Source: Deltaproteobacteria bacterium (lineage in GTDB: Bacteria; Desulfobacterota; DSM-4660; Desulfatiglandales; HGW-15). From it: DNA of 37,755 bases. Each line of letters begins with the position of its first letter. Positions within the stretch are counted from its first letter, which is position 1. The stretch spans positions 1-37,755 of the forward strand of contig JAFDEE010000041.1 in assembly GCA_019310525.1 (NCBI GenBank). Reading direction: 5' to 3'. The translations under genes were made by a program, and so were the position numbers. The notes beneath the pieces are model-generated. The model made no database searches, was not told where the DNA came from, and worked only from the letters and a program-made list of their open reading frames with translations. Of this stretch, positions 6,922 through 32,060 are shown one piece after another.

Positions 6922-7278
6922 GGAAAATGGGTGGTTCCATGAAGGGCTCCGATTCGCCTCCCTTGATCCGGAATCGCCGGGGGCATGGTCATTCCCCGGA
7001 AGATCTGGTATAAACCGGGCCGTCATGCCATGAAGGTCCCCTGCGGACGATTTTTCTCCTCGTTGCCGTAAGAAAGGCCCCCCGAAGCCGCGAAATGGAT
7101 CTGGGGCATATTAGGGGACTCTATCTGTTCACAAAGGCACTTCACCGTCCTGAAACCCTTTACATAGATGACGTTCGGCTCGTAAGGCGGCCTCTGGGTG
7201 GAATCCGGCCTGCAAGTGGAGAAGGATCCCTGAAAGGAGACCTTTGAAAAACGCCTGGCTTTACTCGATCCCGAGCCC

Positions 7279-7533
7279 CTTCCGTTTCCATAACACCCGG
7301 TGAGCACTTCAATTCGGTACCAACCTCCCTCCGAAAGGCCGATGGCGCCTTTTCTTTCGTTCCGAGGCTCCCGGGCTGGTGTTTTCAGCGGCTTATCAGC
7401 GGGGGACACTTGCCCGCCGCTTCCTGGCGGGCCGGCCCCCTCCGCATTCTCCCGCTCTAAGAAGAGCGTGAGCTGCGCGCCCTCCCGCCAGTCACTTCAG
7501 AAAAGGGGCCATCGGCCCTTGTTCAAACCATCC
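7279..7533 (+). repeat. 255-bp dispersed repeat, copy 1
   Basis: This segment reappears as a reverse complement at 18370-18629. Shared blocks include CGTTTCCATAACACCCGG, GTGAGCACTTCA, AGGCTCCCGGGCTGGTG, TTTTCAGCGGCTTATCAGC and CATTCTCCCGCTCT. It contains short hairpins such as GCTCT-AAGA-AGAGC and the self-complementary GGCC-GAT-GGCC. A further partial copy at about 7895-8133 is split by an inserted element. No coding signal is seen. Confidence 0.75.
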
Positions 7534-7686
7534 TCCCAAGGAGAAAAAGACTGAAAACATCAAGCCTCGGTAATCGGGAATTTCAACCGTAACTGACTCT
7601 CTTTAGTGAATGACAATGGGCCTTTTCCCAGGCCCTTTCTGGATCAAGCGCTTTCCCTGAAACCATTGTGCGCACCACCGGGAGAA

Positions 7687-7879
7687 GGGGCATGGAGATC
7701 TTTTCGGAAGTGACCTGTTGGGAGGCCTTCGTTATTTCATGGGGTTAGAGATGGGGGAAACCCCGGCTCCCGCTTGTAAAAGCGGGAGATCGGCGGAGGG
7801 GGCAAGAATCCCCCGTCACTAACCCCTTGAAATAACCAGGCCGGGAGACTCGGGAACGAGGAAAAGATCCCCATGCCCC
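7687..7879. repeat. Three-tier nested hairpin of about 190 bp
   Basis: The outer arms 7687-7705 and 7861-7879 are 19-bp complements with one mismatch (GGGGCATGGAGATCTTTTC and its partner). The middle arms 7732-7757 and 7810-7835 pair imperfectly over 26 bp. The inner stem is a perfect CTCCCGCTT-GTAA-AAGCGGGAG (7767-7788). A related unit in opposite orientation lies at 18632-18753, and a degraded one near 24247-24305. The pattern suggests a cruciform-forming or foldback element rather than a terminator. Confidence 0.7.
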
Positions 7880-7941
7880 TTCAATCTGATCCGGCGAATA
7901 CTTCAATTCGATACCAACCTCCGAAAGGCCGATGGCCCCTT

Positions 7942-8104
7942 GAGACCTTTGAAAAACGCCCCCTTTTGCTCAATTTCTGCGTCAGACTCAAATTTTAATC
8001 CTCGAAATACTCAATGTATTCCTGTGGTTAAAATTTTCGTCTTCCTTGATCTTGATTTCGTCTTCCTTGATCTTGAACAAAATTGAACGTTTTTCAAAGG
8101 TCTC
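7942..8104. mobile_element. MITE-like palindromic element with 17-bp terminal inverted repeats and 5-bp target duplication
   Basis: The ends GAGACCTTTGAAAAACG (7942-7958) and CGTTTTTCAAAGGTCTC (8088-8104) are perfect inverted repeats. CCCTT flanks both sides (7937-7941 and 8105-8109). Removing the element plus one CCCTT restores a sequence that aligns across the junction with 7337-7374, with only a few substitutions, so the insertion is directly visible. Inside, AAATTTTAA (7990-7998) pairs with TTAAAATTT (8028-8036) and AATAC (8006-8010) with GTATT (8016-8020). A perfect 21-bp tandem duplication (8035-8055, 8056-8076) lies in the right half. There is no open frame, so movement would need a transposase from elsewhere. 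Confidence 0.75.
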
Positions 8105-8185
8105 CCCTTTTCTTTCGTTCTAAGGCTCCCGGAGGATCGGCCTTAAGATCGAACTTTTTTCAGAGTTTGAAAGACCATTCCTTTC

Positions 8186-18296: not shown

Positions 18297-18868
18297 CCTC
18301 GACGGCTCACCCTCATCGATATAACGATATTCGCCCTTTCCCTCGATACCTAAGCCAGGATGGAAAAACGGATGGCTCGATCAAGGGTCGATGGCCCCTT
18401 TTCTGGAGTGACCGGCGGAAGGGCGCTGTCGTTTTCGCGGTTTATCAGTAGGGGAAGCCGCAGTTCACGCTCTAAGAGAGCGGGAGAATGTGGAGGCGCC
18501 GGTGGCCCCTGCTGATAAGCCGCTGAAAACACCAGCCCGGGAGCCTCCGAACGAAAGAAAAGGCGCCATCGGCCTTCGCGGAAGCTGTTATCGAAATGAA
18601 GTGCTCACCGGGTGTTATGGAAACGGAAGGAGCATGGGGATCTTTTCCTCGTTCCCGGGTCACCCCCATCCCTAACCCCATGAAATAACGAAGGTTTACC
18701 TGCTGCTATCTGGCAGGCCTCCCAACAGGTCACTTCCGAAAAGATCCCCATGCCCATTTTCCGGTGGTGCGAGTAGCCTTCTAATCTGCTGACCTCATGG
18801 GGAGTTATATTCTCCCAGAGATACAAAAAGACAGGCTGCTCGATTTTTCTTGTGGGCCCTGGGGCTGG
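18297..18868. repeat. Inverted copy of the 7-8 kb repeat cluster
   Basis: No gene is seen. Read as reverse complement, 18370-18629 matches 7279-7533, and 18632-18753 matches the outer parts of the nested hairpin at 7687-7879. The arms AGCATGGGGATCTTTTC (18631-18647) and GAAAAGATCCCCATGC (18738-18753) form a perfect 16-bp inverted repeat. The order hairpin-then-255-bp-repeat is the same as at 7687-8133, so the two together are one composite unit. The remaining 18756-18868 shows nothing recognisable. Confidence 0.75.
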
Positions 18869-20905: not shown

Positions 20906-21446
20906 GTCTCGAACCTCCGTTTGAGTATTTTTCCGATCATCAGTGATTTGCCATCACTCCTCAGAAACGGTCTCCCGGGGGCCGTATCGGATCCCGGAAC
21001 CCGTGAAGCCTTTTCCGCTCCGATCAGGAACATGTCAGCCTTCAGGTGAGATGATCCATCTGCAGCCAGTGACTCTCTCACGGATCTATACCCCGGGAAT
21101 CCTTATCAAAAGGAAAAGTAGGGGTCAATAAAAAAGAAGTCATCAACAACTTTGGATAAGTGTCCTAACTTATCGAACTAACACCTTTTACTGTTTTCCT
21201 TTTTCAAAACCAAAAGGTCATGTCAAAGACTCCGGCCAGGGTCTTCCCGCTTCCAAATCACTTGACGGGTCTAAGGGAAATTCATTATAGGTAGTCAGGT
21301 TTTATCCCAAGATGATTCTAAGGGCCGGGGGTTCCCTGGATCATGTATGATATGGGTCGCACCCCTTGACCCCTTGAATCTTTGAATCCTCAAGCCAATC
21401 CGAACCGGAACGGCCGTTAACTGCTAGGGAGGCATTTGATATTTCC
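20906..21446. other. Divergent intergenic region before nadA
   Basis: About 540 bp without a credible gene. It separates the divergent beta-oxidation and nadA genes and should hold both promoters. Visible signals are an inverted repeat at 21155-21174 and a 21-bp segment (21366-21386) that recurs exactly, inverted, at 31597-31617. No promoter boxes could be assigned confidently. Confidence 0.5.
21155..21174. promoter_or_regulatory. Inverted repeat GATAAGT-N6-ACTTATC, candidate operator
   Basis: A perfect 7-bp inverted repeat with a 6-bp spacer, extended by TT/AA pairs after one mismatch on each side. It lies about 250 bp from both divergent starts, upstream of nadA and of the beta-oxidation gene. 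Symmetry and spacing suit a dimeric regulator, but it matches no operator I recognise. Confidence 0.35.
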
Positions 21447-24143: not shown

Positions 24144-24748
24144 CCCCCCATCCTTAGGCTCCTGAAATCTTCTCCAAAAGAACAAAGTCGGCAGACACTG
24201 TCGAATCCCTCCATCTCCTTTTTTCATGGTCTCTTGGAGCGAGACCTTATTTCATGGGGTAGGGATGGGCAGACTCGGAAACAATGAAAAGACCCCCATG
24301 CCCCTCCATTGTAACCCGGTGAGTATTCAAAATACTGTATTGCATCCCTGTGGTTGAAATTTTCGTCTTCCCCTTCGGGGGCGTGGGTCTTACGGGCTGG
24401 AGGCTGACCTTGAACAAAATTGAACGTTTTTCAAGGATCCCAAGGTCACGACACAAAGCGTTTTTGCGTCCAATTTTTTTGGACAATATCCAATAAAACC
24501 AGAAAATGGAAAACATATCAGAAATATTTGGGCTTTGTTTCATTATGCAATATAAAGGTATAGTTCTATGAATTGTGAATAATTATAGCAATCCATAAAA
24601 TGGCATTTTTCTTGAATAATCAGAGATGAAAAATGGCTGAAACCACGCTTTCAGTCGAATGGCCCGAAGGTTCCTGTGAAAGGCCAGTGAATGGCGAGTG
24701 ATGCAGGTCAACCTGAAAGCATACTGAACGGAGGGGAGGAATTGAAAA
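24144..24748. repeat. Intergenic region with degraded repeat copies
   Basis: No gene is seen. 24247-24305 resembles the outer parts of the hairpin at 7687-7879 (TTATTTCATGGGGTAGGG and the CCCCCATGCCCCT end). About 24325-24435 matches the right half of the 7942-8104 element (TGTGGTTGAAATTTTCGTCTTC and CTTGAACAAAATTGAACG), ending in a truncated terminal repeat. The left half is missing. 24480-24700 is AT-rich and probably carries the chemoreceptor promoter, though no boxes are convincing. Confidence 0.6.
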
Positions 24749-31430: not shown

Positions 31431-31681
31431 GTTTCTTCCTAACGGAAACGGGACCGGGATGGGCCCCCTCCCTTTCATGGGGTTGCTTCTCTAGTCTGAA
31501 GGTATGAAAATTTCTATTTATTAAATAATACCGAAAAACAGGCAACGGAACAAGCATCGAACATGGATATATAGTCGGATCGTTTTTTTATTAGGGTTCA
31601 AAGATTCAAGGGGTCAAGTGAGAAAAAGGGATTTAAGGTAAAATGATTTTCACTTGAACCCAGGACCCTTGGCCCCTAAAG

Positions 31682-31701
31682 CTATCGGCTTCAGCCGATA
31701 G
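31682..31701. repeat. Perfect hairpin CTATCGGCT-TC-AGCCGATAG
   Basis: A 9-bp perfect stem with a two-base centre. No T-run follows. A short related motif (CCGATAG) occurs at positions 9-15. It looks like a short palindromic repeat. Confidence 0.55.
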
Positions 31702-31736
31702 TAGTTTGCTGACAATATCTGTTATGGATGCTAGAA

Positions 31737-31891
31737 TAGTGCCCATCCATAAATGGCCTTTTTCCCCAATCTCTCAGGTCAGGCTCAGATTTTAATTATG
31801 GTGCCTCTGCCGCTTGGCATCCTTCACGGGGCGGTTAAAATCTTCGCCTCCTTGACCTTGAAGAAAATTGCCTGTCTATGGATGGGCACTA
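31737..31891. mobile_element. Palindromic element related to 7942-8104 but with different terminal arms
   Basis: The terminal arms TAGTGCCCATCCATA (31737-31751) and TATGGATGGGCACTA (31877-31891) are perfect 15-bp inverted repeats. The middle stem is AGATTTTAA (31787-31795) with TTAAAATCT (31835-31843), and the inner stem GGTGCC (31800-31805) with GGCATC (31816-31821). The core segments (TCAGGCTCAGATTTTAAT; GGTTAAAATCTTCG; CTTGACCTTGAAGAAAATTG) align with the 7942-8104 element, but arm sequences differ while staying complementary. No clear target duplication or open frame is present. Confidence 0.65.
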
Positions 31892-32060
31892 AGATAATTT
31901 CGGATTATGCATGACAAATATTGAAAGAAACTTTACTTTCACCCGTCGGGTCAGACTTCCTTCCTGCCGGGTCATGACCTAACAGAGTGAATTTCCATTA
32001 AATTATTAACGTATTCAAGATTGCTTGTGCAAGATTTCTGGGTTGAAAAAAGGCTGGAAG

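Follow-up and report, generated by a model that had tools for sequence, protein, structure and literature searches.

Short gene-less elements of Desulfobacterota with one common core and several types of transposon end

Two copies of one short palindromic element lie in the window analysed here (the whole stretch of 37,755 nucleotides), and their arms remain complementary although the arm sequences differ. Which process keeps such an element paired, and how can its copies carry unrelated outer arms? The sequence-only reading of this stretch described three nested stems and proposed either selection on a folded RNA or single-stranded DNA, or subfamilies mobilised by different enzymes. The features that bear on this question are the following.

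31739-31889, plus strand: type A element of 151 bp with ends GTGCCCATCCATAAATGG..GGATGGGCAC (GTGCCC..GGGCAC)
31739-31756, plus strand: left terminal inverted repeat of end type A, matching ISNCY-family transposon ends in relatives
31872-31889, minus strand: right terminal inverted repeat of end type A
31732-31738, no strand: left flank TAGAATA of the type A copy, a probable decayed target-site duplication
31787-31843, plus strand: middle stem AGATTTTAA/TTAAAATCT around a replacement apical hairpin module (GGTGCC..GGGGCGG)
7942-8104, plus strand: type B element of 163 bp with ends GAGACCTTTGAAAAACG..CGTTTTTCAAAGGTCTC (GAGACC..GGTCTC)
7942-7958, plus strand: left terminal inverted repeat of end type B, matching IS5-family transposon ends in relatives
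8088-8104, minus strand: right terminal inverted repeat of end type B
7937-7941 (left) and 8105-8109 (right), no strand: target-site duplication CCCTT of the type B copy
7971-8085, plus strand: the type B copy's portion of the shared directional core, from a core profile match
8035-8076, plus strand: two tandem copies of a 21-bp unit, TTTCGTCTTCCTTGATCTTGA, within the right arm of the type B element, read from the sequence
24325-24441, plus strand: degenerate type B copy with decayed ends
7237-7269, plus strand: solo type B left end within another large repeat

The arms quoted in the sequence-only reading can all be located, for the 31.7-kb copy (outer arms 31740-31751 / 31877-31888, TGCCCATCCATA/TATGGATGGGCA; middle stem 31787-31795 / 31835-31843) and for the 7.9-kb copy (outer arms 7946-7958 / 8088-8100, CCTTTGAAAAACG/CGTTTTTCAAAGG; middle stem 7990-7998 / 8028-8036, AAATTTTAA/TTAAAATTT). 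Both copies fold far beyond dinucleotide shuffles (z of -6.75 and -7.45; none of 200 shuffles equals them). The inner stem fared less well: its arms are present, but the innermost hairpins of the two copies are not homologous, the one at 31.7 kb being a replacement module (GGTGCC..GGCATC..) that occupies the same spot in many copies, and its minimum-energy pairing differs from the inner pairing proposed earlier. Note that the interval 31737-31891 given in that reading is the type A element plus flanking TA/TA. The right flank of this copy (31890-31896, TAAGATA) is identical to the left one at 5/7 positions. The tandem duplication inside the 7.9-kb copy brings its length from 142 to 163 bp. Other repeats share the window: 7237-7766 and 18370-18762 are large diverged inverted copies of the longer repeat that holds the solo type B end, and a different dispersed palindromic repeat (GGGTTCAAGGATTCAAGGGGTC..CTATCGGCTTCAGCCGATAG), found at 31576-31700 and 21365-21407, sits also within core elements elsewhere (L017, L025, L029, L032).

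Judged by their sequence features, 31739-31889 and 7942-8104 are MITEs. The family is gene-less and ~142 bp long; most copies lie between genes, and terminal inverted repeats and target-site duplications mark their ends. Among 168 copies a mean of 13.4-15.1 of the 16 terminal bases are complementary, a figure partly selected for, since typing used both ends. No transposase ORF was found between matched ends; the sole ORF there (L116) is transporter-like, and the ends around it match by chance. Arm pairs flanking genes at a spacing of 0.7-3 kb were considered as well, and the pairs in L116 and L213 proved to be chance or two solo copies. Long coding capacity was not found in the core (the longest frame free of stops has a median of 46 codons), nor was an IHF site (0/168 exact matches, with near-matches fewer than in shuffles), and an Rfam scan of the window gave 0 matches above the gathering threshold.

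Direct repeats in the flanks point to past transposition of the elements. They also bear on the idea that a RAYT (Y1) transposase moved these elements as REP/REPIN palindromes, or that they are single-strand elements of the IS200/IS605 type. Such an origin would suit the palindromic form, intergenic location and high copy number, but the elements have target-site duplications and matched terminal repeats in common with DDE transposons, and we give it practically no credence; the REP/REPIN class was rejected, as it is expected to have a Y1 transposase and no target duplication, whereas duplications are present here.

At least five types of end, with differing duplications, were found around a single core; they are listed here with the copies showing the duplication as exact flank matches and the expectation from shuffled partners.

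End type A: GTGCCCATCCATAAATGG; 6-bp duplication, mostly TANNTA; 27/61 copies, 1.8 expected
End type B: GAGACCTTTGMAAAACG; 5-bp duplication; 33/60 copies, 0.6 expected
End type C: GAGCCARTTTCAAAACG; 4-bp duplication; 9/13 copies, 1.1 expected
End type D: GTGCCTGAACGAAAACTG; 6-bp duplication; 12/19 copies, 1.3 expected
End type E: GGAGGCTGTCCGAGAATGG; TA flanks; 7/12 copies, 5.8 expected, not separable from a TA target preference

One further copy (L209) suggests a sixth end type. The type A right end exists in a second form with an extra 30-35 bp (TCTCATTTCTGGA.TGGAAACTC..TGCCCA..TGGATGGGCAC), seen in different genera (L053, L082, L113).

Which enzymes could have moved these ends? In relatives, type A ends are found on ISNCY-family transposons, flanked by duplications TAATTA (L293, L292) and TAAATA (L310), and type B ends on IS5-family transposons with duplications TGAAG (L262) and ACTGT (L263). 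Type D ends belong to a second ISNCY clade (both ends in L299, one end in L298, L301 and L302), which is ~27% identical to the type A clade. Ends resembling type E, with TA flanks, occur on IS1182-family transposons (L231, and a related end in L333), the match being imperfect. For type C, one end adjoins an IS5-like transposase in L343; a matching second end was not found. Thus the ends of types A, B and D are shared exactly or near-exactly, and those of type E near-exactly, with autonomous transposons, as is expected of MITEs. No sequence similarity was found between the core and the bodies of these transposons. The proposal of subfamilies mobilised by different enzymes is borne out, as the end types differ in the length of their target duplications and four of the five (A, B, D and E) match transposons that encode distinct transposases in relatives.

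The partner transposases examined (A, B and E) all have DDE_Tnp_1 and DUF772 domains, which would fit descent of types A to E from one ancestral MITE by drift of its ends along with a single co-evolving transposase lineage, as would the weak likeness among the ends of types A, B, C and D (8-12 of 18 positions). However, these transposases belong to different NCBIfam families (ISNCY, NF033593; IS5, NF033581; IS1182, NF033551), the duplication lengths differ between types, the cores are not sorted by end type and hybrid-ended copies exist (see below), which makes such a drift quite improbable.

A helper transposase in the same genome, a usual but not strictly defining trait of MITEs, was not found for types A, B and E: their transposases gave 0 matches in the genome of the window (G000; assembly 97% complete). 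Helper transposases are often lost, and an absent helper is usual for old MITEs, so that its absence here is compatible with MITE membership. Mobility in this genome would therefore be past, or would depend on an enzyme that was lost or is unassembled. The PF01609 match in this genome was rejected as a helper, as it is a single intact IS4-type transposon whose ends (CAATGTCATTAACTTAA) are unrelated. At the end of a contig, this transposon (L092, G000:C62:1-2581) adjoins a copy of the element.

The family is large. With the type A and type B copies as queries, 58 and 55 scored matches, respectively, were obtained in their own genome, and first-look candidates exceeded 300 for either query; patterns for the ends matched 270 (type A) and 248 (type B) times genome-wide, control patterns 0 times. 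A sample of long contig stretches of the same genome, 416 kb in total, has 34 core matches (one locus being counted on both strands), from which ~300 copies can be extrapolated, an estimate only, as the contigs were picked partly for length and presence of matches. The sampled copies with identifiable ends are all of type A or B except one hybrid. ORFs make up 85% of this sample, and 30/34 core matches lie outside them, versus 15% expected. Median length is 141-144 bp for every end type. Many contigs of this genome stop within ~130 bp of an element end (C3, C7, C14, C19, C61, C62, C85, C121 and others); the elements thus fragment the assembly.

Beyond this genome, a scan of GTDB contigs with an exact pattern for the apical core returned at least 117 stretches, and the core family occurs in the genomes of dozens of relatives. 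The records bearing the core are, by their names, MAGs of Desulfobacterota type (Desulfobacteraceae, Desulfobacterales, Syntrophobacterales, Desulfatiglandales, 'Deltaproteobacteria' and others). The exact pattern was not found in viral contigs.

Do core and ends share one history? In 34 copies less than ~90% identical to one another, the cores are as similar within end types (identity 0.841) as between them (0.845), whereas the left arms of the same copies are 85-92% identical within end types and 41% between them. A core tree requires at least 27 end-type changes where 4 would suffice; note that this tree comes from 93 columns and resolves few forks, and its strongly supported branches force only few end-type changes. 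In the genome of the window the nearest core of a copy often carries the other end type, which is not so in most other genomes. The hybrid copy of this genome (L082, the same as the 18366 region of L113) combines a left end of type B with a right end of type A, and keeps AATCTG, resembling a type A duplication, in its two flanks, as would be expected had one end been exchanged in situ. Two to three more copies are hybrid-ended (L213, perhaps L134).

From these comparisons we conclude, with a probability of about 0.88, that one core family has spread via several helper transposases through at least five interchangeable end types. The outer stem would be a terminal inverted repeat recognised by a transposase supplied in trans, and the inner part a common directional core of ~100 nt, a quasi-palindrome with conserved unpaired segments. 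Each end type would be served by a different transposase, A and D by those of two ISNCY clades, B by IS5 and E by IS1182. Template switching, or recombination with a second element, may replace one end, and the other end may then be made to match it by arm-to-arm copying through the hairpin; the evidence for exchange by template switching consists of few hybrids and a core tree with few supported branches. The same copying would hold the inner stems complementary while they change.

The covariation of the outer arms is thus exchange of paired transposon ends. For the inner stems, a multi-copy alignment bears out the compensatory change that had been noticed in two copies. In the structure examined (28 pairs) 95.4% of cells are paired, and double changes occur in 17/28 pairs. 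Doubly changed cells number 61, compared with 10.6 in shuffles (0/500 reach 61) and 6-14 with slid partners, and only 8 cells are changed on one side. The covariation is therefore real, but it does not establish the selection on a folded molecule, RNA or single-stranded DNA, that was proposed from it. RNA helices usually evolve via G-U intermediates, and an excess of double changes almost without one-sided G-U changes suits maintenance of the palindrome in DNA, by arm copying in a hairpin, at least equally.

Conservation of the unpaired segments has to be weighed separately. The alignment was partly chosen by the exact pattern, so that conservation in columns 58-92 carries no independent weight; in nine copies lacking the exact pattern, identity over these columns is ~72-82%. 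In the unpaired stretches that the pattern does not cover, identity is 79% (columns 33-43) and 86% (columns 106-114), no lower than in the stems. Maintenance of the palindrome at the DNA level accounts for the pairing, not for these conserved unpaired stretches.

One could hold that selection acts on the core as a structured regulatory or processed RNA, which the transposon ends merely spread. The strong covariation, the unpaired segments conserved no less than the stems and a core direction that is constant under all end types agree with this. Nevertheless we regard it as unlikely: the window has no Rfam match, one-sided changes are rare although an RNA would tolerate G-U intermediates, hairpin modules of various kinds, and even unrelated repeats, break up the core, and its strand relative to neighbouring genes is inconsistent (in a small sample). 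The near absence of one-sided changes would fit hairpin-templated repair, copying arm to arm, as the sole source of the covariation, structure and core being without function. The quasi-palindrome indeed spans the whole element, and the tandem duplication and the modules resemble template-switch products. Still, this explanation falls somewhat short of an even chance, as arm correction alone leaves the conserved, asymmetric unpaired segments across host families unexplained and recent horizontal spread would have to be assumed.

The extra modules are located at few fixed core positions in many copies of the genome of the window (e.g., L018, L019, L022, L037) and are themselves hairpins (CCGCCAGACAGCGGCGG, GGGGACCCACCCGTTGGGTGGGGAGTCC, CCTCCGGGGCGTAGGCC..GGAGG). 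In L024, L044 and G000:C19:107123-107572 a further MITE-like palindrome (AACCCAAATTATGC..GCATAATTTGGGTT) is nested in the middle stem.

Our preferred reading, a core family served by several transposases, leaves room for a function of the core. Tentatively, and with some doubt, we consider that it may be a portable functional module, conserved throughout Desulfobacterota, to which ends of different IS families have been joined time and again; it could be a host-factor site, an enhancer of transposition for several unrelated transposases, or an RNA.

MITEs are normally viewed as decayed derivatives of a single insertion sequence. The elements described here would instead be non-autonomous elements able to switch their helper and to outlast any single one. 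Their hundreds of copies in dozens of genomes are a natural data set on end exchange and on a conserved transposon interior, and the same data bear on whether hairpin repair produces apparent RNA covariation. Strong covariation in a bacterial repeat should thus not be taken alone as proof of an RNA.

Among known systems, the ISNCY, IS5 and IS1182 insertion sequences have terminal repeats and target duplications like those of end types A/D, B and E, respectively, but they encode a transposase and their bodies have no sequence in common with the core. Prokaryotic MITEs such as Chunjie (Geobacter), Correia/CREE and ERIC are, like the present elements, short, gene-less, intergenic, hairpin-forming elements of high copy number with terminal inverted repeats and target duplications (PMC10969869; PMC2649163). 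Prokaryotic MITEs of type I and II are relatives of insertion sequences that share IS sequence or only the ends, and the ends of a type II MITE are those of one related IS (PMC10969869), whereas here one core has the ends of several IS families. Literal searches of open papers yielded no description of such a prokaryotic core, nor of chimeric or common-core MITEs; within the reach of these searches and of Rfam, the suggestion that the family is an undescribed structured one holds. TIMEs, the miniature elements derived from Tn3, are also non-autonomous with modular mosaic interiors, but combine one end family with varied interiors (PMC4133298), the reverse of one interior with varied ends. The best parallel, by analogy, is the highly conserved central domain of some SINEs (V-SINE and similar), where a conserved centre is likewise combined with exchangeable ends that fit different helpers; the V domain is reported to have been spread also by a DNA transposon (PMC6887750). 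SINEs are animal retrotransposons; the parallel is only a mechanistic one and homology is not expected. If the core is indeed a portable module, it would be a bacterial counterpart of these conserved central domains.
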